Shown here: positions 1,273 to 22,936 of the stretch, one piece after another
Layout: each line of letters begins with the position of its first letter
Position numbering within the stretch: the stretch's first letter is position 1
IMG/VR virus record: IMGVR_UViG_3300017751_000255
Location: 1 to 22,936 of that record
Length of the DNA stretch: 22,936 nt
Source: a virus
Direction: 5' to 3' (one strand)
The notes under the pieces: generated by a model
Told to the model about the DNA's origin: nothing
Databases searched by the model: none
The model's input: only the letters and a program-made list of their open reading frames with translations
Translations under genes and position numbers: made by a program

Positions 1273-1788
1273 ATGTCAACGCTGAAGATTTACAAAGATA
1301 AAGAATATGCAACATTGCCTGAATTTCAAACACAGGGATCTGCATGTTTTGATGTACAAGCTGCATTTGAGATAGGGCAAATGATTCGTGCCTACAATCC
1401 TTGGAATAAGGAAATTAATATTGTCACTAAAATCATTGCTGGCAATACAGGGTTTCTACTCCATCCAGAGCATCGAGCTCTCGTTCCTACAGGTCTTATA
1501 TTCGATATTCCTGAAGATCACGTACTTAAAATGTATGTGAGAAGTAGTGTTGCTCTGAAGAAAGGTCTTGTTCTAGCGAATGGTACAGGTATTATCGATA
1601 GTGACTATGTCGATCCATCTTATATTATTCTACATAATATCTCGGATAGTTTAGTACGTATCGAGCATGGAGAAAGACTAGCTCAATGTGCTCTTGAACC
1701 AGTTTTCAAATATGATATTGAAGAAATTGATGAGGCTCCATCTCAAAAAACTGATCGTGATGGTGGGCTTGGAAGTACTGGTACTTAA
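1273..1788 (+). CDS. dut: dUTP diphosphatase (dUTPase)
   Basis: Hydrolyses dUTP to dUMP and pyrophosphate, keeping uracil out of phage DNA and supplying dUMP for thymidylate synthesis. All five motifs of the trimeric dUTPase family are visible in 171 residues: motif 1 SACFDVQAA (23-31), motif 2 VRSSVALKKGL (89-99), motif 3 NGTGIIDSDYVDPSYI (103-118, with the catalytic Asp in IIDSDY), motif 4 GERLAQC (133-139), and motif 5 DRDGGLGSTGT (161-171). Two departures are notable. Motif 2 has VRSS where most have PRSG, and motif 5 has Leu where most have the base-stacking Phe (GGFGSTG). The fold should be kept; activity is likely but not certain. AGGA precedes the ATG by about 10 bases. Confidence 0.93.
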   Translation: MSTLKIYKDKEYATLPEFQTQGSACFDVQAAFEIGQMIRAYNPWNKEINIVTKIIAGNTGFLLHPEHRALVPTGLIFDIPEDHVLKMYVRSSVALKKGLVLANGTGIIDSDYVDPSYIILHNISDSLVRIEHGERLAQCALEPVFKYDIEEIDEAPSQKTDRDGGLGSTGT

Positions 1789-1815
1789 AAAGTTTTACTC
1801 AACAACGCAACGTTG

Positions 1816-1823
1816 AATAAATA
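1816..1823 (+). promoter_or_regulatory. Late-promoter-like box AATAAATA upstream of hsp20
   Basis: AATAAATA differs from the T4 late consensus TATAAATA only at the first base. It lies in the 107-base gap between dut and hsp20. A transcript would start near 1829, immediately at the hairpin of 1828-1854. The same variant occurs on the opposite strand at 8240-8247 in another non-coding gap, which supports its use. Confidence 0.45.
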
Positions 1824-1827
1824 AAAA

Positions 1828-1854
1828 TGGTAGGATGCCGATAGGGTCCTACTA
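1828..1854 (+). promoter_or_regulatory. Hairpin in the hsp20 leader
   Basis: GTAGGA (1830-1835) pairs perfectly with TCCTAC (1847-1852). A G-U and a T-A pair extend the stem to 8 bp around an 11-base loop. No T-run follows, so it is not a standard terminator. Its position at the predicted 5' end of a late transcript suggests a stability or translation-control element. A second small hairpin, CAACG-CAA-CGTTG, lies just upstream (about 1802-1814). Confidence 0.4.
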
Positions 1855-1895
1855 CACTTACAATTTAACTTAATCTTGCTTAATAGGAGATAACA

Positions 1896-2342
1896 ATGAC
1901 TGGATTAAATATTAATCAGCTCACCCCTTTTACTGTCGGCTTCGATAGAATGTTTGACAGACTAGTGGATTTTCCCCACCAACAACCTTCTCAAGGTTTC
2001 CCTCCCTACAACATACGTCGAAACGAAGACGAGTTCTTTATTGATCTTGCGCTTGCCGGTCTCGATATCAATGATGTAGAAATCGAAGTTAAAGAAGATG
2101 TACTTACCATTCGTTCTACTTGGGACGAAGCAGGTGATTACTTCAATGGCGGCGGTGATTACGTTCATCGTGGAATTTCTTTTAAGAAGTTTACAAGAAG
2201 CTTTACTCTTGCGAATGATTTGAAAGTACTAGGCGCCAGCTTCACAAATGGTCTATTGACTGTTAACCTAGAACGTGTCATTCCTGAACACAAAAAGCCA
2301 AGAAAAATTAAGATAGATACTAAAGAGTTTCTAAGCGAGTAA
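1896..2342 (+). CDS. hsp20: Small heat-shock protein, Hsp20/IbpA family
   Basis: ATP-independent holdase chaperone that keeps unfolding proteins soluble; such genes are common in T4-like marine phages. The 148-residue protein has a short N-terminal arm with a phenylalanine-rich start (GFDRMFDRLVDF). An alpha-crystallin domain covers about residues 38-135: YNIRRNEDEFFIDLALAGL, the strand KEDVLTIRS, and the signature ASFTNGLLTVNLERVIPE corresponding to the family A-x-x-x-N-G-(V/L)-L motif. The C-terminal extension holds an IKI sequence (I-x-I motif) that in this family bridges neighbouring dimers. A strong ribosome-binding site, TAGGAGA, precedes the ATG. It lies 16 bases before the peroxiredoxin gene, so the two are probably co-transcribed from the late-type promoter at 1816. 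Confidence 0.93.
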   Translation: MTGLNINQLTPFTVGFDRMFDRLVDFPHQQPSQGFPPYNIRRNEDEFFIDLALAGLDINDVEIEVKEDVLTIRSTWDEAGDYFNGGGDYVHRGISFKKFTRSFTLANDLKVLGASFTNGLLTVNLERVIPEHKKPRKIKIDTKEFLSE

Positions 2343-2358
2343 CATAGGAGTTTATATA

Positions 2359-2868
2359 ATGAAAGCAGTACCAGAAGTCACCTTTAAGGTGAGAGTACGC
2401 GACGGTGATGAGTTTGATTGGGCGTATCCAACAACTGATGACTATTTTGCTGGAAAGCGTGTAGTAGTCTTTTCATTGCCTGGAGCGTTTACACCAACAT
2501 GCTCAAACTTCCAAGTCCCTGGGTTTGATGCTTTATACGATGACATTCGCAAATTGCGAGTAGATGATGTTTATTGTATCTCTGTAAATGATAGCTTTGT
2601 AATGAATGCATGGGCCAAAGAACAAGGTGTACGTAACCTGACTTTGATCCCAGATGGAAGTGGTACATTTACTGAAGGTATGAATATGCTTGTCCGTAAG
2701 GATAACCTAGGATTCGGAGCTCGATCTTGGCGCTATGCTATGATTGTAGATGATGGTAAGGTTGAAAAGATATTTGAAGAGCCTGGAAGATCAGATAACT
2801 GTGAAACAGATCCGTATACTGAAACAACACCGCTAAATGTTTTAGAATATTTAAAATATTCCCTATAA
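2359..2868 (+). CDS. Peroxiredoxin, Prx5 (AhpC/TSA-like) family
   Basis: Thiol peroxidase that reduces hydrogen or organic peroxides through a cysteine. The 169-residue protein has the Prx5 active-site signature LPGAFTPTCSNFQVPGF, with T45 and peroxidatic C48, and the conserved Arg in ARSWRYAMIVDDG (R125). The order of elements (VVVFSLPG, VYCISVNDSFVMNAWAK, LIPDGSGTF, GMNMLV) is that of the group including yeast Ahp1, human PRDX5 and bacterial Prx5-glutaredoxin fusions. No glutaredoxin domain is attached. C73 and a Cys near the C-terminus (DNCETD) are candidates for a resolving cysteine. AGGAG lies 10 bases before the ATG. Together with Hsp20 it forms a stress-protection pair; a role in protecting the infected cell from oxidative damage is inference. 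Confidence 0.93.
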   Translation: MKAVPEVTFKVRVRDGDEFDWAYPTTDDYFAGKRVVVFSLPGAFTPTCSNFQVPGFDALYDDIRKLRVDDVYCISVNDSFVMNAWAKEQGVRNLTLIPDGSGTFTEGMNMLVRKDNLGFGARSWRYAMIVDDGKVEKIFEEPGRSDNCETDPYTETTPLNVLEYLKYSL

Positions 2869-13189: not shown

Positions 13190-14719
13190 ATGGCAACTAA
13201 ATGTATTGATAGAACAGATCAAACCACACTAAATAATTTAGCATTAGTTGCTGGGCCTGTTGTCGACGGAAACGGCGTCTATAATGAAAATCAGATTGAT
13301 GCAATCGCAAAAGAAATTGCAGATAACATTAAACAAGATGCAGAACGTAATCCGGTACAAATCGCTTTTAATCGTTATGGAAATGCTTTTTACGAAGTTG
13401 CTCCATTTATTAATGGTGATTTTAAACAAAGCTATACTGGTGAATACGATGACTTAAGTGATCGATACGTAAGAGGTAATATTACGAATATCGAAATAGC
13501 CGAGTTCATGCAAGAGTATAACTATACACCTGATCAGATTACGAATACAAATAATTACGAAAAGCTCGCAAGAGAAATGGATAATTACTATAAGAATTCT
13601 TTTGCTGATAGTATATTAGGTGGAATATGTAATACGTTACAACAGTTCTTCGGTGCAATTGATTCTTTTTATTCTTTATTGGGCACGATCGACGGACTAC
13701 TTACAGATGCCGCAGAGTTTATAGCTAAGGTTCGAAGCTATGAAAGTTTCGCAGAGTTTGTTCAACAAGAAATTATTGATAAACTAATTGCAGAAATACG
13801 AAAGAAGATTGTAGCTGTTATTAATGCAGTGATTCAAGATGTTCGAGATGCAATTCAAAACTTTAACATATTAGGATTAACACTTGAGCAAGCAAGTACT
13901 AAAGCAGTAAAAGAAATTATGACTTATCGCGAGTTATCTTGTACAACTCTTTCTCCTGATAATGAAAAGGATTTCATAAAACGTATTGAAGCTGGTATCG
14001 ATTACTTCGTAAGTAAAATTGAAAATATTGATCTTGAGAGTGTACAATTAATGGTAGCTCGTATATGTGCTTTCGGTGCAAGTATCGAAGCTCTCATTAA
14101 AGATATTAATCGTCCTCTAGATAACTTTGGAGTGAACTACGAGCGAATTGTAAGACGTATTCAAAACATGGGTAAAATAGGAACATCTACTGCGATAGCG
14201 GCCGGCGCGATCCGTTATTCTCCAGAAGCTCGTGATGATAAGATAAATAGTCTAAAGGAACTCTGGGATGGTACAGGTGGTGAACCTCGTATCACTCCAA
14301 GCAATCGCCAACCGGTTGTTGTACCGCCTATAACGAAAGAAGAGTATCAAGACCTTCCTCGTTGCGGATCAGTAATGGCAGGTGAAGACGAAAGGATTAA
14401 GGTACAAGGTGACTGGATAGAAGATCTTGGTCCTGATGGTTACGCTCGAGTTGATCTCGATGTTAAAGTATACCTGATGCGAGTGCAAAAAGAATTGAAT
14501 CAAACATTCACCATTCAGGCTGGATGGCGAAGTAAAGAATACAATGAGGAAATAGGTGCGGATAAGGATTCACCGCATCTAAGTGGTTTAGTTATAGATA
14601 TAGTAAGCGAAGGTCTTGACTTAGAACGTTTTAGCGAGATTGCTTTCCGTAGTGGATTTAAACACGTAGTAGAATACAAGGGCTATATACACCTTGACAT
14701 AAGAGAAATGGCACAATGA
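13190..14719 (+). CDS. Baseplate-associated protein with C-terminal M15-type peptidase domain
   Basis: A 509-residue protein. The N-terminal 350 residues are mostly helical, with a long amphipathic run (DKLIAEIRKKIVAVINAVIQ), suggesting a structural part. The C-terminal 125 residues look like the peptidase M15 (VanY/L-alanyl-D-glutamate or D-Ala-D-Ala peptidase) family: VYLMRVQKELNQTFTIQAGW, then RSKEYNEEIGADKDSPHLSG, LVIDI, and GYIHLDIR. The zinc ligands would be H463 and D470 (SPHLSGLVID) and H501 (IHLD), with D503 following. These enzymes cut peptide bonds of peptidoglycan. It lies directly after gp5, which lacks its usual lysozyme, and before gp25 (ATGA overlap), so it probably supplies the wall-digesting activity of the tail tip. 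I do not recognise the N-terminal domain. Confidence 0.75.
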   Translation: MATKCIDRTDQTTLNNLALVAGPVVDGNGVYNENQIDAIAKEIADNIKQDAERNPVQIAFNRYGNAFYEVAPFINGDFKQSYTGEYDDLSDRYVRGNITNIEIAEFMQEYNYTPDQITNTNNYEKLAREMDNYYKNSFADSILGGICNTLQQFFGAIDSFYSLLGTIDGLLTDAAEFIAKVRSYESFAEFVQQEIIDKLIAEIRKKIVAVINAVIQDVRDAIQNFNILGLTLEQASTKAVKEIMTYRELSCTTLSPDNEKDFIKRIEAGIDYFVSKIENIDLESVQLMVARICAFGASIEALIKDINRPLDNFGVNYERIVRRIQNMGKIGTSTAIAAGAIRYSPEARDDKINSLKELWDGTGGEPRITPSNRQPVVVPPITKEEYQDLPRCGSVMAGEDERIKVQGDWIEDLGPDGYARVDLDVKVYLMRVQKELNQTFTIQAGWRSKEYNEEIGADKDSPHLSGLVIDIVSEGLDLERFSEIAFRSGFKHVVEYKGYIHLDIREMAQ

Positions 14720-15132: not shown

Positions 15133-17025
15133 ATGGCCAGCGTAAAAACACCCATCACCGAACTCGACTTTGATGGAGTAAAAGCTCAGCTAAGAGAATA
15201 CCTAGCAACCCAGACACAATTCAAAGACTATAACTTTGAAGGCTCGAACATGAGCGCTCTGTTGGATGTACTAGCATATAATACTTTTCAGAATAACTTC
15301 TATACGAATATGGCAATCAACGAGATGTTCCTTGATTCTGCTGTAATGAAGAATAGTGTTGTTTCTCATGCTAAAGAGCTTAACTATCTACCAAGATCTC
15401 GTAAGAGCGCGATTGCAGTCGTTAATGTTCGTATTCAAGATAGTTCACTCGTAGAAAATGGTCCTTCAACACTTACTATTCCTACATATACTAACTTTGG
15501 TTCTACGTTTAAAGGTGATCAATTTAATTTTGTTACTAACGAAACCTATGTTGCAAAGCGAACTGAACCAGGTGTTTATGTAGCTCAAGACGTAAGTCTA
15601 TACGAAGGTCAAATGCTAGCTAGCTTTACTCGTGAAGGATTTATTATTGATGCTGATGGAGTACTTCGAGTCCAGTTAACAAACAACGAAGTTGATACTG
15701 ATTCGATTGTCGTGTTTGTAGATGCGGAAGAAACTGAAGATCAAAACATCTTTACACGAGCAAATACAATATATGGTGTAGAACCTCTTGATAAAGTATT
15801 CTATATTGAACCTTATCTTGATGATCGCTATGCGGTTTACTTCGGTAAAAACGAATTTGGTCTTCAACCATTTGAATACGAAGATGTTCGAGTAAGATAT
15901 CGTGTATGTTCAGGTGAAGAAGCAAATGGCGCAAACATATTTACTGCAAGTTTCGTAGAAGGTGCTAGCATCAGCTGTACAACTGTTACTCCAGCAGCCG
16001 GTGGTCAAGAACGAGAGACTTTAGAATCGATTCGCTACTTTGCTCCTAAGGCTCTTCAAATACAAGAGCGAGCTGTGACTTCACGAGATTATGAAGTATT
16101 GCTCATGCAAAAATTCCCCGATATTAAATCTGTTTCTGCTTATGGTGGTGAACAGCTTGATCCTCCACAGTTTGGTAAGGTTGCAATCTCTGTTTATCTC
16201 AGCAGTGAAAGCGAGTTAATATCTAAAACACTTTCAAATGCTTATGTTACGTTCTTAAGAGATAAGAGTCCTCTAGGAATCGAACCCATATTTGTACAAA
16301 CAAAATACGTATATGCTGATGCAAGTATCGCAATACGATATAGTCTTAAGAATACTGAAAAGAGTGCAGCACAACTTGAGAGTATGGCACGGGCAGCATT
16401 GAGCACTTATGCTACAGAGAATCTTGAAGACTTTAATCGAACTTTACGAAGTAGTGTATTGACTGGAATAGTAAGTGATGTTGATGCAGGCATATTAAGT
16501 GCTGATGTTGAAATTCTACCTATCATTGAGTACTCACCTGTTATTAATATGGTTACGAATCCAACGTTTAGATTTGAAGCCGAATTACATAGACCATATC
16601 CTTTCCGTAGCACTAACGGCTTTGACAATTATAAGTCAGCTATACGAAGTAGTCCATTCGATGTAAATGGTACATGTGTTTATTTGCAAGACGATGGACT
16701 TGGCAATATGATGACAGTGACCGATGATATGAACAATCCTCAAGTTATTAATCCCAGTGCCGGTACTGTTGATTATAGTACTGGTGAAGTTAAGCTCAAT
16801 CGCTTTACTACCGAAGAATATACTGGAAACGCAATTAAGATTATGGCTCGACTTAAGGATAGTGATTACACTTCTCCGAAAGGGCGAGTGTTTATTTTAC
16901 GAGATACTGATATCAAAATCACGATGGAACTTGAAGAAAAAGGAGCAGCACCGGTTATTAATACCGCAACTCCAGTAGGAACAGTCAGTTCATCTGGTAT
17001 AGGAACAGGTTCTAGCATTTACTAA
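15133..17025 (+). CDS. 6: Baseplate wedge protein gp6
   Basis: A 630-residue wedge subunit (T4 gp6: 660), of the gp6/J-like family that forms the continuous inner ring of the baseplate. The N-terminus ELDFDGVKAQLREYLATQTQ with FEGSNMSALLDVLAYNTFQN and NFYTNMAINEMFLDSAV is a very characteristic gp6 opening. Later parts contain ESIRYFAPKALQIQERAVTS and RDYEVLLMQKFPDIKSVSAY, the segment shared with J-like proteins (PxxxxxxxRAVTxxDY), and IFVQTKYVYADASIAIRYSL. The C-terminal 150 residues are beta-rich. It begins right after gp25 and ends 9 bases before the gp7-like gene. Confidence 0.95.
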   Translation: MASVKTPITELDFDGVKAQLREYLATQTQFKDYNFEGSNMSALLDVLAYNTFQNNFYTNMAINEMFLDSAVMKNSVVSHAKELNYLPRSRKSAIAVVNVRIQDSSLVENGPSTLTIPTYTNFGSTFKGDQFNFVTNETYVAKRTEPGVYVAQDVSLYEGQMLASFTREGFIIDADGVLRVQLTNNEVDTDSIVVFVDAEETEDQNIFTRANTIYGVEPLDKVFYIEPYLDDRYAVYFGKNEFGLQPFEYEDVRVRYRVCSGEEANGANIFTASFVEGASISCTTVTPAAGGQERETLESIRYFAPKALQIQERAVTSRDYEVLLMQKFPDIKSVSAYGGEQLDPPQFGKVAISVYLSSESELISKTLSNAYVTFLRDKSPLGIEPIFVQTKYVYADASIAIRYSLKNTEKSAAQLESMARAALSTYATENLEDFNRTLRSSVLTGIVSDVDAGILSADVEILPIIEYSPVINMVTNPTFRFEAELHRPYPFRSTNGFDNYKSAIRSSPFDVNGTCVYLQDDGLGNMMTVTDDMNNPQVINPSAGTVDYSTGEVKLNRFTTEEYTGNAIKIMARLKDSDYTSPKGRVFILRDTDIKITMELEEKGAAPVINTATPVGTVSSSGIGTGSSIY

Positions 17026-17034
17026 GGTGTAAAA

Positions 17035-20000
17035 ATGGAAGTCGAAAAGAATATAGCCTTTTTCATAAAGGAACAGTTTCCGGGCATCTATAAAGAGAAT
17101 GGTCCAGAACTTGTTGCTCTTGTTGAAGACTATTACAAATTTTTAGAAACGCAGAGTAATCAATCTCTGTATGTTTCTCGTCGACTATTTGAATACCGAG
17201 ATGTTGACACAACGCTTGCTGAATTACTTCTATTCTTTAAAAATAAGTTTCTACATGACCTTCCTCTTAAAGAAAGTACAATAAACTTTATAGTTAAAAA
17301 CGTTCTCGATCTTTATAGACGTAAGGGTACACCTGCTGGTATCGAATTATTCTTCTCAATTTTCTTCCAAGAATTTGATATCGATATTGTTTATCCAGCT
17401 GATAAGATGATGAAGGTGTCGAATAGTAAATGGAGACGCGGTGTCTATTTACAAATCATTCCTAATGATAATCGATTTAGATCAGTATCAGGAAAGGTGT
17501 ATACTTACCTTGATTTAATTTCAAAGAATATTGAAGGAAGTACTTCTGGCGCAAAGGCTGCTGTAAGTAAAGTCAACTTTATTATGTTGAATGGAATCAA
17601 GACTCCTATCATTTATATTGATGAAGTGCAAGGTAACTTTGAAAGATACGACGAAGTCATTGCAGTTGTAAATGGAGAAAGCGTTGTATTTGGTCGTGTT
17701 GCTGGCTCACTGAGTGCTTTTGAAGTTGATCAGAATTCTGATGATGCAACCGTAGGAAACTCTATAGGAGATCAACTCACTATTACATCTCAATTCGGTG
17801 ATGGTGGTGAGTGTATTGTTACAGATGTAAGTAACTTAATATCCGGTGATGTACGATACGAGATTGACGATGGCGGTTATGGATATACTATTGATAATAC
17901 TCGTTTACAGGTTTCAACACAAACATTACTTGTAGACAATCCTAATTTACAATTCATACCTTACGAAAGATTACGAGACTCGGGTGGTAATGAAGCAATC
18001 GTAATAGGTCAGACTGAAGATCTATTAGGTGTAAAATCACAAGCTGGCCAAGAGTTCGATTTAAGTCGTACAATTAATACATTAGATCGTGATACCAATT
18101 TCCAAGTAGTACCTATCGAGATTAGTCCATTCAATGCTACATCGCCTGGACCACTTTATCCTGATGGTGGTGACGATGAAAACGATGTTATTGTAGGAAA
18201 CTTAACGAACACATCTCAAGTTTCAATTATTACAGACTTAATTGCTCCACATATTACGACTCAATTAGATGCTGCAGATTATGAAGCTACCGCTCCAATG
18301 TCTGGTACAGCCTCACCGGTTACGTTAACGACACCATTGAATCAAGCGTTTAATGTACAACCATTTACGATAGGTCGAATTGGTAGTTTCAATAATGTTC
18401 GTAAAGGTAGCAATTATCAAACTCAAGTATTCGCTCGAGCTGAAGACGAGATCTTTAGTCGACTACAAAGACGTAATCAGGTACTTAGATTTGATGATCC
18501 CGGTGAAGCAAGTACGTTTAGTGTAGGCGAAACCATTACGCAAAATAATACTAACGTTCAAGGTTTAGTACAAGTTGTTGATAATGTAAATGGATTTATT
18601 AGTGTATTACCATTCGATTATTACGGGTTTAATAACACTGACGGAATTCAGAAAGGACAAATTGTTGTTCCTATTGCAGGTGCAGCACTTGACTATGATC
18701 GAGATGTACTCGGCGATAATGCTCAGATTAATGCGATTACAGATTTTGCAGTTGGTAAAATTAAAGAAGTTGCAATATCAAATTCAGGATTTGGTTACGT
18801 TGACTCGGCAATAGGTACACTAAAAACAAAAGACACTAATGAAGTACGTGCCGGTGGAACAATACGAACACTGACACAAGGAAAGACTGCAGGATATTGG
18901 TCTTCATTCTCGTCTCACTTAAATGGTTACCAACCTGATGGCGAATATTATGAAGCTGGTATGCGAGTACAAGACAGTGATTTCTTCCAAGAATATTCAT
19001 ACCAAATTAAATCGTCTCTTGCTAAATCACAATATGAATCTTTACTAAGAGATAATGTTCACCTTGCCGGAACCAAAATGTTCGGTGACTTCATCTATAA
19101 GGTGAAAGTCGATTCAGAGACAAAACCACGATTCTATCGTAAGTTTAATGATGATGGTACAGGTAGCCCATTTGATGTTGCAGATGTAACGAATATCGAA
19201 GCATCCGTAACGAACTATACAGTTGATAGTAATTATTTAACTGTCGATCATATTCCTGGAGGAACCGGCGGACTGGTTCTTACAAACGACACTGTTTTAG
19301 ATATTACTAAGAACTGGTCACAGGGTCTCCACATTTATTCGACTACAGTACAATTACCATCGAGTGGAACAGGTCCTTTCCCTGTAGCAATATTACTACA
19401 CGGTAACGGCGGCAATGGTGCCGGCATGGTCTCTCAATTTACGAGCGACTTACCTGGCCACATCTTAATCGGTGTTGATGGATATCAAAATAGTTGGAAC
19501 ATTAGTAACGAATCATCGAATGGTCCTGACATTGAAATGCTAACAGAGCTCGTTTCAAACATTCAGGTATATGCTAATGTTGATGAAACTAAGATTCGTA
19601 TTGTAGGTTCAAGTAACGGTGGTGCTCTTGCATTAAGAGCCGCTGTTGAAATTAGTGATCCAGCTATTGATACAATTGTTTGTATGATATCGCAAACGAA
19701 TACAGATCAATATCGTAGTGGACAATTCTATTATCCATTTAATGAAGAGCTTACAGGTGATGCATACCTGAATGATGGATATGATACTCCGGTAACGACA
19801 ATTCCGCAAAGACGACTTGTTCAAATGAATGGCGTCAACGATACAGTCGTTCCATATAACGGAGGAACATTCGTAGGAATGACATTCCTTACTGCTCCTA
19901 ATTCAGCATATCGATTTGCTGGTGCATTAGGCTTTGGAGGTGTTCAATCAGCAGGTGTTCCATTCGGTAATAACAGTAATATTGTAGACTATGGCAATAC

Positions 20001-20097
20001 CATATTCATGAATGATAACGTGGGTCACACAGTATCACCGGATATGCGAGTGTTGCTTAACAACTATCTCGAAGATAACTACAAGATAACATATTAG
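17035..20097 (+). CDS. 7: gp7-like baseplate wedge protein with fused C-terminal alpha/beta-hydrolase domain
   Basis: A 1020-residue protein. The N-terminus (FFIKEQFPGIYKENGPELVA, then LVEDYYKFLETQSNQSLYVS, FKNKFLHDLPLKES and LYRRKGTPAGIELFFSIFFQ) is the typical opening of wedge proteins annotated gp7 (or gp8) in marine T4-like phages. Beta-rich repeats fill the middle. A segment with YQIKSSLAKSQYESLLRDNV and AGTKMFG (to residue about 684) resembles the usual end of such proteins. From about 745 an alpha/beta-hydrolase of the PHB-depolymerase/feruloyl-esterase type follows. It shows the oxyanion region LLHGNGGNG (H789), the nucleophile elbow VGSSNGGA (S860), the acid in NGVNDTVVP (D936), and the histidine in NVGHTVS (H998). 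The triad is complete and in order, so an active esterase is likely. The fusion is unusual for a wedge protein. Confidence 0.8.
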   Translation: MEVEKNIAFFIKEQFPGIYKENGPELVALVEDYYKFLETQSNQSLYVSRRLFEYRDVDTTLAELLLFFKNKFLHDLPLKESTINFIVKNVLDLYRRKGTPAGIELFFSIFFQEFDIDIVYPADKMMKVSNSKWRRGVYLQIIPNDNRFRSVSGKVYTYLDLISKNIEGSTSGAKAAVSKVNFIMLNGIKTPIIYIDEVQGNFERYDEVIAVVNGESVVFGRVAGSLSAFEVDQNSDDATVGNSIGDQLTITSQFGDGGECIVTDVSNLISGDVRYEIDDGGYGYTIDNTRLQVSTQTLLVDNPNLQFIPYERLRDSGGNEAIVIGQTEDLLGVKSQAGQEFDLSRTINTLDRDTNFQVVPIEISPFNATSPGPLYPDGGDDENDVIVGNLTNTSQVSIITDLIAPHITTQLDAADYEATAPMSGTASPVTLTTPLNQAFNVQPFTIGRIGSFNNVRKGSNYQTQVFARAEDEIFSRLQRRNQVLRFDDPGEASTFSVGETITQNNTNVQGLVQVVDNVNGFISVLPFDYYGFNNTDGIQKGQIVVPIAGAALDYDRDVLGDNAQINAITDFAVGKIKEVAISNSGFGYVDSAIGTLKTKDTNEVRAGGTIRTLTQGKTAGYWSSFSSHLNGYQPDGEYYEAGMRVQDSDFFQEYSYQIKSSLAKSQYESLLRDNVHLAGTKMFGDFIYKVKVDSETKPRFYRKFNDDGTGSPFDVADVTNIEASVTNYTVDSNYLTVDHIPGGTGGLVLTNDTVLDITKNWSQGLHIYSTTVQLPSSGTGPFPVAILLHGNGGNGAGMVSQFTSDLPGHILIGVDGYQNSWNISNESSNGPDIEMLTELVSNIQVYANVDETKIRIVGSSNGGALALRAAVEISDPAIDTIVCMISQTNTDQYRSGQFYYPFNEELTGDAYLNDGYDTPVTTIPQRRLVQMNGVNDTVVPYNGGTFVGMTFLTAPNSAYRFAGALGFGGVQSAGVPFGNNSNIVDYGNTIFMNDNVGHTVSPDMRVLLNNYLEDNYKITY

Positions 20098-20134: not shown

Positions 20135-21889
20135 ATGGCCAAGCAAACAATAGGAATCGGATCAACGGCAAATGACGGAACAGGCGATCCGTTAAGAAAC
20201 GCATTCGATAAAGTCAACGATAACTTTAATGAGTTATACTTCTCAGCGGGAGGAAATTCACCGGTTAGTCTTTTCGACTCTAACCTGAATATCGACTATC
20301 CCGGCAAACCGAATAAAATCTCGTTTCTGTATAGCACAGAAGCTGACCTGTTAGCAGTTGATGCTTCGGTATATCATGGCGCAATAGGCCACGCTCATGA
20401 TACTGGCGCATTGTACTATGCTCACGGTGAGTGGCGTAAGCTACTCGCGGACACCTCAGCTGGAGCCATAACAAACTATACTGATCCTTTATCTCCATTT
20501 GTTTATGATGGTGCTATCACAAACGATGAAGCAGCAAACTACGTTTTACAAGCAAATGGTGATGACACATATACTTGGGTAGCTCAAGGTGGCGGCGGTG
20601 GTGGTAGTTCATACACTAACAGTGATGTGGATGCACACATTAATACTTCAGCTGCACAAAATAATGAAGTATTAAGTTGGGATGGTTCTGATTATGCTTG
20701 GGTTGCACAGGGTGGTGGAGGAAGCAGTACGAACTCTTTTGCTACAATCGCTATTGCAGGTGTTTCATTACAAGCAGCTAGTGCGACTGACACATTAACG
20801 ATTAGCCCAGGAGCTAATGTTACTCTTACAGGTGATCCTAACAGTAATGAAATTACAATTGCAGCTTCAGGTGGCGGCGGTGGTAGTGGTACTGATCTGA
20901 ATAGTTTATCAGCTGGTACTATTGATGTAGCTAGTGACTTTATTGGCTTTATCGATAATGACGATAGTAGTAATTCTAAAAAGGAATCGATAGTCGATTT
21001 AGTTGCAGCAATCGCAGGCTCAGGATTGACTGCATCGGCCGGTCAGCTTACAGCATCAAGTGGTTCAAGTACTCTTGCTGACTTAACAGAAGTTGATATG
21101 GCTGACCTTGATCTTCATGATATGGCAGCAACTGCTGTTTCAACTTATTATGTTGTAGGACCAGACAGTTCAAGATATACAATGGATCAATTGCCCGGTG
21201 ACAATCCTACTGTTTATGTTACTGCAGGTCAAACTGTTGCTTTTGAATTAAATGGTGCTACTTCATCTCACCCATTTGAAATACGACAGCCTGATGGTAC
21301 AACAGCTTATAATACAGGTCTTGTTCATTACGCAAACGACGGTACTAAGTCAGTAGGCTCAGCTGCACAAGGTCAATATGAAGGAACTCTTTATTGGAAG
21401 GTTCCCGGCAATATCAGTGGAACATACAAGTATATTTGTACTGTTCATAGTGGAATGATCGGTGATATTGTTATTGCTGACCCATCAGCGAGCAGTGGTG
21501 GTGGCGGCGGTAGCCTTTCACGAGTTACTGAACTCAAAAATACTGGATCATTTACTGGTAACCAATCGGTTGACTTTACTACACTCGGTAAATCATACGC
21601 CCTCTATACAGTTGTTGCTGAAAAAGAATGTCGTATTCGTATTTACTCAGATGCAGCATCACGAACTGCTGACTTATCTCGACCAGTGAGCGATGATCCT
21701 CCGGAAGGTGCAGGTGTTATTGCTGAGTTTGTTGCAACCTCACCTAACACAACATTTAAAGTTACACCAGCAATATACGGATATATTGACGATGGCGAAA
21801 CAGTTATGCCAGTTACCGTTACGAATAACACGGGCGGTGCTACTGACATAGACGTTACGTTTACTGTACTCAAACTCGAAGATAACTAA
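20135..21889 (+). CDS. gp10-like baseplate/fibre protein with cupredoxin domain
   Basis: A 584-residue protein. Residues 4-37 (TIGIGSTANDGTGDPLRNAF, then DKVNDNFNELY) match the N-terminus of T4 gp10 (INIGNVVDDGTGDYLRKGGI), which binds gp7. The preceding gene is gp7-like, so it should attach to the wedge. Two similar units ending WVAQGGGG follow, joined by polyglycine linkers. A region near 195-330 has short fibre-like motifs. Residues about 338-455 form a cupredoxin (plastocyanin-like) domain, with SSHPFEIR (H379) and YICTVHSGMIGDI (C435, H438, M441). This is the complete His-Cys-His-Met set of a type-1 copper site. A Gly5 linker leads to a C-terminal beta domain (490-584). It is expressed from its own late promoter. 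Role: baseplate pin or fibre; the copper domain may serve binding or display. Confidence 0.75.
   Translation: MAKQTIGIGSTANDGTGDPLRNAFDKVNDNFNELYFSAGGNSPVSLFDSNLNIDYPGKPNKISFLYSTEADLLAVDASVYHGAIGHAHDTGALYYAHGEWRKLLADTSAGAITNYTDPLSPFVYDGAITNDEAANYVLQANGDDTYTWVAQGGGGGGSSYTNSDVDAHINTSAAQNNEVLSWDGSDYAWVAQGGGGSSTNSFATIAIAGVSLQAASATDTLTISPGANVTLTGDPNSNEITIAASGGGGGSGTDLNSLSAGTIDVASDFIGFIDNDDSSNSKKESIVDLVAAIAGSGLTASAGQLTASSGSSTLADLTEVDMADLDLHDMAATAVSTYYVVGPDSSRYTMDQLPGDNPTVYVTAGQTVAFELNGATSSHPFEIRQPDGTTAYNTGLVHYANDGTKSVGSAAQGQYEGTLYWKVPGNISGTYKYICTVHSGMIGDIVIADPSASSGGGGGSLSRVTELKNTGSFTGNQSVDFTTLGKSYALYTVVAEKECRIRIYSDAASRTADLSRPVSDDPPEGAGVIAEFVATSPNTTFKVTPAIYGYIDDGETVMPVTVTNNTGGATDIDVTFTVLKLEDN
20543..20728 (+). 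repeat. Imperfect protein repeat, two W-V-A-Q-polyGly units
   Basis: Two units in the gp10-like gene, at 20543-20611 and 20669-20728, both encode VL-x-x-x-G-x-D-x-(0,2)-Y-x-W-V-A-Q followed by four to six glycines and two serines. The DNA differs, so it is an old duplication kept at protein level. Such modules act as spacers or assembly cassettes in tail-fibre proteins of marine phages. Confidence 0.65.
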
Positions 21890-21890
21890 A

Positions 21891-22936
21891 ATGGATAAGC
21901 AATACTATACAGTTATATTACAGCCTGGAACAGATGAACCGGCGTTTTTAAGCAGCGTTGCTGCTGGGATGACTGTAAAAAGTAATCTAAACAACTTCGA
22001 CGGTCTCATCTTAATGAGCTTGACTCAAGACGAAGTTAACATACTCGTAGCAGACGATCGAGTAATTCGTTGTGAAATCGATCTTCCTATTGAACCAACT
22101 GAGTATCCTGCTTCGAGCCCTGTTGCTGATCGTGAAGCAGATTTAGTTACACGAACTATTCCATCTCCCGGTGGTTTGCCTGGAGCTCGTTTTAGCAGTA
22201 CAAGCTTTTACTATACAGGTAGTGCAGATCCTGATACAGTAACACAAAGTTCGGGTGAGGTAGGTTTTTTTACAAACTTAAGTGAAGACGCTCGAGTTAC
22301 AGCAAATGTAAGACAAAACTATTCAGGCGCTTATGTAGATGTTGTTGCTGTTGAAGCTGGTGAGCCTTCTTCTAGCTATAGTGGTTGGCTTACGCATCCC
22401 GACTTTATGTTAGGTTCTGATGCTTCAAGAGTGTTAGGTGAAGCACAAACATATTCACTTACACTTACTCCTGATGGTAGCACTGGTTGGTTAGTATCAG
22501 GCACTGACAGATCGACTACACATACTAATGCTTTGAATCCGGCAATTAACATATATGCTGGTGATACACTTGAACTCGTTAACACAGCAGGGTCATCGCA
22601 TCCTCTTGAAATTATCGATGCCAGTACAGGTGCTCAGTATGATAATGCAACAGGTCAAGGAGCTTATGATGGAGCTTCTCAAGGAGACACACTCACTTGG
22701 ACTCCGACCTCTTTACAAACATCTGGCACCGGTGGATTAGGTACTTATAGATGTACTGTTCACGGTGCTATGGCAGGACAACTTCAAGTTAATTATAAAC
22801 GAACCCGAGTTGAACGTACTGATTGGTCTAACTATGATAATGGATTAGTTGATAATGATCAACTTACAGGTGGAGCTGATCTCTTTTCGTCTCATGCAAT
22901 AGGAGTACTCAGTGCTTGCGCTGGCACATTCTGTGG
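21891..22936 (+). CDS. Partial protein: propeptide-like start, cupredoxin domain, start of subtilase-like region
   Basis: ATG 21891 lies one base after the gp10-like stop; the frame stays open for 348 codons to the window edge. Residues 1-65 (YYTVILQPGTDEPAFLSSVA, then an LILMSLTQDEVNILVADDRV segment) resemble an inhibitor-I9 subtilase propeptide. Residues about 185-300 form a cupredoxin domain with SSHPLEII (H237) and YRCTVHGAMAGQ (C288, H291, M294), all four type-1 copper ligands. After TRVERTDW (D311) comes SSHAIGVLSACAGTF, which aligns with the subtilase histidine motif (S-H-G-T-H-V-A-G). H335 sits at the catalytic position, although GTH is replaced by AIG. The remainder, with any catalytic serine, is outside. 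Likely a virion-associated tail protein with a protease-like part. The subtilase reading is tentative; the copper domain is clearer. Confidence 0.6.
   Translation, partial: MDKQYYTVILQPGTDEPAFLSSVAAGMTVKSNLNNFDGLILMSLTQDEVNILVADDRVIRCEIDLPIEPTEYPASSPVADREADLVTRTIPSPGGLPGARFSSTSFYYTGSADPDTVTQSSGEVGFFTNLSEDARVTANVRQNYSGAYVDVVAVEAGEPSSSYSGWLTHPDFMLGSDASRVLGEAQTYSLTLTPDGSTGWLVSGTDRSTTHTNALNPAINIYAGDTLELVNTAGSSHPLEIIDASTGAQYDNATGQGAYDGASQGDTLTWTPTSLQTSGTGGLGTYRCTVHGAMAGQLQVNYKRTRVERTDWSNYDNGLVDNDQLTGGADLFSSHAIGVLSACAGTFC

Follow-up and report, generated by a model that had tools for sequence, protein, structure and literature searches.

Esterases that are carried by the virion and act on host glycans have already been described in bacteriophages, with the Vi01-like acetyl esterase and the G7C esterase as examples, both of them located on tailspikes. 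The contractile baseplate offers other positions close to the cell. In phage T4, gp7 is present as one copy per wedge, thus six per virion. One study places BW3 (T4 gp7) at the periphery of contractile baseplates, as the attachment site of receptor-binding proteins (PMC10811340).

Here we analysed a stretch of DNA of 22,936 nucleotides from a marine T4-like phage (IMG/VR record IMGVR_UViG_3300017751_000255, positions 1 to 22,936; hereafter "the window"), which contains a gene for a gp7-like baseplate wedge protein that continues, in the same frame, into an alpha/beta-hydrolase domain resembling esterases. Its likeness to the Vi01-like and G7C enzymes is one of description only, and the carrier differs, being a wedge protein instead of a tailspike. 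Such a mounting is unusual: our literature searches on the subject found no wedge-borne phage esterase.

Results

A hydrolase domain fused to a baseplate wedge protein

The open reading frame encodes 1020 residues (Table 1). In the profile search, PHROG 17744 ("baseplate wedge subunit") matched residues 1-312 (E 3.3e-93), while PHROG 2576 ("unknown function") matched residues 747-1015 (E 3.8e-63) through profile positions 299-582 of 587 (E 1.2e-64), the first half of that profile being unmatched by the window protein. An earlier note on this DNA had listed the reading frame, an AGTKMFG motif, HGNGG, G-S-S-N-G, D936 and H998, and all were found where it had put them. It had also taken AGTKMFG, here residues 678-684, as the usual end of the wedge protein; the motif is there, and the boundary had to be shifted to about residue 741 (window position 19257), after which a GGTGG linker begins the domain.

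The identical 1020-residue protein is encoded in two other contigs (L006 and L007) bearing two different metagenome identifiers, and the same fusion is present in a 66% identical relative of 1151 residues (L008). Since it recurs in these loci, the fusion is genuine, and an assembly chimera is ruled out by its presence under other metagenome identifiers and in diverged relatives. In one further locus (L044:738-3801) the wedge-hydrolase gene consists of two overlapping frames, which may reflect either a true split or an error in sequencing.

Table 1. Position and basis of the features described in the window.
Feature	Position	Strand	Basis
M15-family peptidase, same baseplate cluster	13190..14719	+	PF08291 31.5 bits, cut-off 23.2
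gp6 baseplate wedge protein, immediately upstream	15133..17025	+	PF21379 69 bits, cut-off 27; phrog_219 E 1.1e-139
gp7-like baseplate wedge protein with C-terminal hydrolase, whole gene, 1020 aa	17035..20097	+	ORF list, PHROG profiles
Wedge part, residues 1-741, as in relatives ending there	17035..19257	+	AlphaFold2 model, PDB matches, junction in relatives
Gly-rich linker GGTGGL, residues 742-747, at the fusion junction	19258..19275	+	Sequence; comparison with relatives
Predicted alpha/beta-hydrolase domain, residues ~748-1020	19276..20094	+	AlphaFold2 model of 740-1020, VIA-align
HGNGG, residues 789-793, probable oxyanion-hole loop	19399..19413	+	Sequence; role as in fold family
Nucleophile elbow GSSNG, residues 858-862; predicted catalytic S860 at 19612-19614	19606..19620	+	Conservation, model
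Predicted catalytic D936	19840..19842	+	Conservation, model
Predicted catalytic H998	20026..20028	+	Conservation, model
gp9/10-like wedge-to-tail-fibre connector, downstream	20135..21889	+	PF07880 26.2 bits, cut-off 25; phrog_677 6.1e-52

Fold and conservation of the hydrolase domain

The AlphaFold2 model of residues 740-1020, computed from an alignment of 73 diverse sequences, had a mean predicted local distance difference test score (pLDDT) of 95.3 and a predicted template modelling score (pTM) of 0.93. The top Foldseek match in the PDB was acetyl xylan esterase B of Aspergillus oryzae (9j07, E 1.7e-14), to which VIA-align superposed 249 residues with Z 24.8 and a root-mean-square deviation (rmsd) of 3.0; the same chain also matched by sequence (E 1.5e-7). 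The feruloyl esterase 8jh8 (Z 22.6) and the acetyl xylan esterase 5x6s (Z 21.1) came next, and all the 1000 chains compared reached Z >= 8. The fold, the G-x-S-N-G elbow and the Asp region of 9j07 and of related feruloyl and acetyl xylan esterases align with the window protein; these are, however, free fungal enzymes, 16-20% identical, and their substrate may differ. A literature search on the Aspergillus enzyme found no paper naming AoAXEB. The hydrolase fold that the earlier note had read from motifs was thus recovered by structure prediction and fold search, and the model confirms residues 742-1020 as a complete alpha/beta-hydrolase domain.

We collected 154 non-duplicate hydrolase loci and dropped 10 partial ones, leaving 144 complete domains (79 viral and 65 from the genome collection, near-copies kept), 73 of which are representatives less than 85% identical to each other. 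S860, D936 and H998 were identical in 144/144 domains, all viral architectures included, and the same three columns were invariant in 73/73 representatives; the ordered triad proposed in the earlier note is therefore conserved, and the loss of conservation that it had named as refuting did not occur. The search patterns for the loci included the HGxGG stretch, so its conservation is partly due to selection of the sequences, and none of them included the triad. In the model, Ser121, Asp197 and His259 (S860, D936 and H998 of the protein) come after strands, as the fold requires, with a strand before and a helix after the serine elbow. HGNGG is probably the oxyanion-hole loop, as in the fold family.

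The ratio of nonsynonymous to synonymous substitution rates (dN/dS) of the hydrolase was 0.09-0.46 in every pair listed, so that the domain is under purifying selection. A chance motif is ruled out by the profile matches, the fold and the conservation, and a degenerate enzyme is unsupported, the triad being invariant and dN/dS low. These sequence data strongly imply catalysis, and we regard the domain as very likely an active esterase. One could also imagine a binding module, with a hydrolase fold that docks onto a surface ligand without turning it over: the catalytic activity is a prediction, and phage receptor-binding proteins sometimes employ enzyme folds. With the triad intact in every viral architecture and dN/dS low, we consider this very improbable.

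The wedge part resembles gp7

The AlphaFold2 model of residues 1-741 had pLDDT 77.8 and pTM 0.49. Its best two PDB matches were 5iv5_BJ (1004 residues, E 6e-5) and 9f4a_A0 (1031 residues, E 5e-4), with 5hx2_A in fourth place; VIA-align ranked the same three chains first, with Z 9.4 (rmsd 17.3, 169 residues aligned), 9.0 (17.4, 172) and 7.2 (3.5, 82), respectively. The entries 5hx2, 5iv5 and 9f4a contain gp7, either from T4 or from Klebsiella phage KP1. The match spans the C-terminal core of T4 gp7 (about 702-895) and, with an rmsd of 17 across several domains, the modelled likeness to T4 gp7 is a domain-wise resemblance.

Synteny points in the same direction. The wedge gene directly follows gp6 in the window, as it does in phiM12, Cr30 and T4, and the window order (M15 peptidase, a small gene that by eye is gp25-like, gp6, wedge) parallels that of the phiM12 record (M15 peptidase, gp25, gp6, wedge), in which the wedge is annotated as similar to PHA02579. 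Furthermore, 34/55 wedge relatives match PF23786 at E 0.001, and its cut-off of 27 bits is exceeded by phiM12 (32.8), Cr30 (39.7) and RHph_I1_18 (40.7), with DLP_6 at 26.9. Taken with the model, this supports residues 1-741 as a gp7-like baseplate wedge protein in the BW3 position, in agreement with the carrier assignment of the earlier note.

Four wedges (L022:4391-7846, L168, L190 and L223) carry, just before a QDSDFFQEYSY motif, an insertion that looks dockerin-like by eye (DGFAYGDINxxGSIxSxD type) and that is missing from the window protein.

The domain is optional among wedge relatives

The earlier note had proposed a survey of gp7-like relatives for presence or absence of the domain. We examined 80 wedge loci, the best 80 of at least 537 confirmed ones; the profile was built from hydrolase bearers, so the counts are not a prevalence. 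The hydrolase was found in 20/80 (18/74 loci with an intact 3' end and 2/6 cut ones), while at least 41 of the 80 stop no more than 70 residues from the AGTKLF-type motif. Short extra tails were seen in six loci and different long tails, at this same point, in another six; three are without the motif.

Several of the bare wedges terminate in "...VDSTYVTADHEPV" or "...ASVTNFTVDSTYVTADHEPV". At the junction, fused relatives read "...ASVTNYTSDSTYVSADHIPGGSGGLTL..." and the window reads "...VTNYTVDSNYLTVDHIPGGTGGL..."; the fused relatives share a Gly-rich linker of the same type, which bare wedges do not have. The junction is exact and the hydrolase is an optional, accessory part among relatives. 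The wedge part and the position after gp6 are common to the window and to Cr30, phiM12 and T4, whose records have no hydrolase match (the search matched cyanophages only), and the 767-residue wedge of Cr30 fills the entire PHROG 17744 profile and then ends. No hydrolase match was found anywhere in the 137-kb record behind the wedge locus L167 or in the 77-kb record behind L185.

Other tails were seen at the same junction in L204:5787-6440, L206:7995-10631 and L214:8001-10619, with repeats that are Calx-beta-like by eye; the label is given by eye because Pfam returned no Calx-beta match in these tails. In the first of them the Calx-beta-like part is followed by a cupredoxin-like part similar (E 2e-7) to the gene at 21891-22934 of the window.

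The same domain on other carriers

Of the 80 viral loci found in the search for the hydrolase, 36 have wedge and hydrolase in a single frame. The hydrolase part of PHROG 2576 occurs in 65 phage records, cyanophages without exception. In S-ShM2, S-SSM4 and ACG-2014d the domain is the C-terminus of a 573-590-residue protein encoded between a giant gp7-like protein and gp9, and these proteins, together with A0A1D7SKQ1 of S-RIM14, carry the same hydrolase at 36-44% identity. The window model superposes on the S-RIM14 protein with a template modelling (TM) score of 0.93. The cyanophage version differs from the window in being a separate YHYH-type protein and not a wedge, and it is annotated as hypothetical (as gp7 in S-ShM2). 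The S-ShM2 protein contains the YHYH domain PF14240 (136.5 bits), while for S-SSM4 and ACG-2014d the YHYH label rests on length, position and resemblance. YHYH is described in one study as a predicted tail-associated metal-dependent hydrolase (PMC7824862). In Synechococcus phage ACG-2014h (S-MbCM7), V5URI3 has the same domain (38-40% identical, TM 0.94) placed, unlike in the window, between subtilase and cupredoxin-like domains, and a further viral group has it near the N-terminus of proteins of about 1160 residues. Cultured cyanophages thus have this domain already, without annotation, on different baseplate-region proteins.

The annotation of S-ShM2 ADO97705.1 (L001:5122-6843) as "gp7: baseplate wedge initiator" deserves a remark, as this protein consists of YHYH and hydrolase, and the gp7-like sequence lies in the giant protein before it. 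With a cyanobacterial host for the window phage in mind, we looked for Photo_RC genes; none was found in the eight viral records tried, which included the 156-kb record behind L021 and some fragments; the S-ShM2 control gave two.

These unrelated carriers, and the Gly-rich linker that precedes the domain in the window, would suit a domain cleaved after translation, or a fusion never incorporated into virions, with the enzyme working free inside the infected cell. We noticed no processing site, however, and the cyanophage carriers examined (YHYH and subtilase types) likewise adjoin structural genes; the chance of such a free enzyme appears slight. Display of the domain on the virion is, in our estimate, quite probable.

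Most of the cellular relatives (best segments 29-53% identical) belong to Bacteroidota, Planctomycetota and Verrucomicrobiota, and many are marine. Among three of them that were scanned, Por_Secre_tail was found in L103 and L119 and a weak dockerin in L101; signal-like N-termini were also noted by eye among the cellular relatives, which therefore look secreted. One carbohydrate esterase adjoins the hydrolase in L136. The secreted type of these relatives, mostly of Bacteroidota and Planctomycetota, and the dispensability of the domain among close phage relatives would fit an active esterase working outside adsorption, which loosens marine mucus, exopolymer or cell debris and so eases the way of virions to or from cells. 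Mounting on the wedge favours instead a task at the cell surface, and the M15 peptidase of the same cluster would suit entry; we regard the mucus role as improbable.

Possible exchange between phages

On a quick wedge tree of 109 rows (50 with the hydrolase, 56 without and 3 cut; 86 different), hydrolase presence changes at least five times, every change being forced by starred branches. On the hydrolase tree the wedge-fused domains form one clade (100/100), joined with the YHYH- and subtilase-fused ones (97/93). A single origin of the fusion followed by loss, or spread by recombination, would fit this pattern.

The hydrolases of L195 (same contig as L022) and L019 have a synonymous divergence (dS) of 0.284, against 1.289 for the wedges. 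Local DNA identity peaks over the hydrolase in four of the seven pairs profiled (L022/L019, L022/L021, L019/L021 and, modestly, L020/L027) and in three it does not. With these switches of presence, and with hydrolases that in some pairs are much closer to each other than the wedges carrying them, the domain seems to have moved between phages, and local exchange is suggested. The case for at least two captures of the domain from cells is weak, because L127, the cellular sister of the second viral group, may itself be viral. In this "Neomarinimicrobiota" contig (L127:595-10400) the hydrolase is on a 1802-residue protein adjoining a subtilase-DUF7483 protein, and the contig may be phage DNA assigned to a cellular bin.

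Gene neighbourhood

The genes around the fusion are given in Table 1. Downstream of the gp9/10-like connector, a gene at 21891-22934 is cut by the end of the window; in the near-identical L006 (8640-11261) it encodes a protein of 873 residues that gives a cupredoxin-like hit (PF00127, 28.4 bits) and in which a subtilase GTSxAAP motif can be seen by eye. Genes for a dUTPase, Hsp20 and peroxiredoxin lie ahead of the structural cluster (window 1273-2868).

Discussion

We propose that a complete serine esterase domain was joined, via a Gly-rich linker, onto the native C-terminus of a gp7-like wedge protein. The wedge part would build the protein into the baseplate, as one copy per wedge if the stoichiometry is as in T4, hence possibly six per virion. 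Because gp7/BW3 forms the rim that carries the receptor-binding proteins, a C-terminal domain there is well placed to touch the cell, and the esterase would face it when the virion lands. S860 would attack the ester carbonyl, with H998 and D936 relaying the proton and the HGNGG loop stabilising the oxyanion; the products would be an alcohol and an acid. The likeliest substrate would be an acyl ester (acetyl, short acyl or feruloyl-like) on a host surface polysaccharide, whose deacylation would allow the phage to attach to the glycan layer or get through it. We judge this baseplate-edge entry esterase, deacylating a host-surface glycan, to be on balance probable; for the glycan acyl substrate taken by itself we would put the chance at even or slightly better.

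Several results weigh against this proposal. On the carrier side, the window wedge scores 14.9 bits against PF23786 (cut-off 27), the wedge profiles have no good sequence match to any solved chain, and hhalign against T4 gp7 gave a 42-column match with probability 10; as direct sequence matches are weak, it is the fold, the synteny and the relatives with higher scores that support the likeness to gp7. On the enzyme side, the window protein matches the NCBIfam model of short-chain polyhydroxyalkanoate (PHA) depolymerases, NF050058 (E 1.1e-8), with 34.9 bits, and does not reach its curated cut-off of 150; AXE1 (PF05448) gives 19.9 bits, just under the Pfam gathering score of 21, and BD-FAE (PF20434) 19.6, well under 26.8. 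TIGR01840 matched 1/73 representatives, the window protein not being the one. The earlier note had called the domain similar to polyhydroxybutyrate (PHB) depolymerases and feruloyl esterases: by sequence the resemblance to PHB-depolymerase, AXE1 and BD-FAE esterases holds, but the domain appears to belong to none of these families, and we file it in no curated esterase family because its scores lie below the cut-offs. A scan of nine proteins flanking the cellular relatives gave no consistent substrate signal. Finally, what we say of display on the virion, of catalytic activity, of the substrate and of a part in adsorption is inference.

The close folds span acetyl xylan, feruloyl, PHB, acyl-protein thioester and phospholipid esterases, so that the substrate is not predictable from them. 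Human APT2, APT1, lysophospholipase A2 and PHB depolymerases align to the hydrolase model with Z 20-21, close behind the best matches, and NF050058 alone among the NCBIfam models matches every one of the 73 representatives (E 0.001). Both facts would suit an active baseplate esterase that works on a lipid, a lipoprotein thioester or a polyester and helps the tail through the outer membrane. The best matches by sequence and fold are nevertheless acetyl xylan and feruloyl esterases, and NF050058 is far under its cut-off (34.9/150 bits), which makes a lipid or polyester target unlikely in our view.

We know of no isolate of the window phage. Substrate and role are nonetheless open to laboratory tests, thanks to the cultured cyanophages with this domain, and PHROG 2576, so far of "unknown function", gains a testable enzymatic function, its hydrolase part being found also in many marine viral contigs. 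Phage tail esterases are known from spikes and fibres; an esterase built into the wedge would widen the list of phage sites for surface-modifying enzymes, and gp7 would gain a swappable host-facing role. More tentatively, the C-terminus of gp7-like proteins may be a general socket at the rim of marine T4-like phages, into which the esterase and Calx-beta-like or cupredoxin-like modules are plugged at the native last residues and swapped by recombination. If this is true, contractile phages would own a host-facing tool set independent of the tail fibres.

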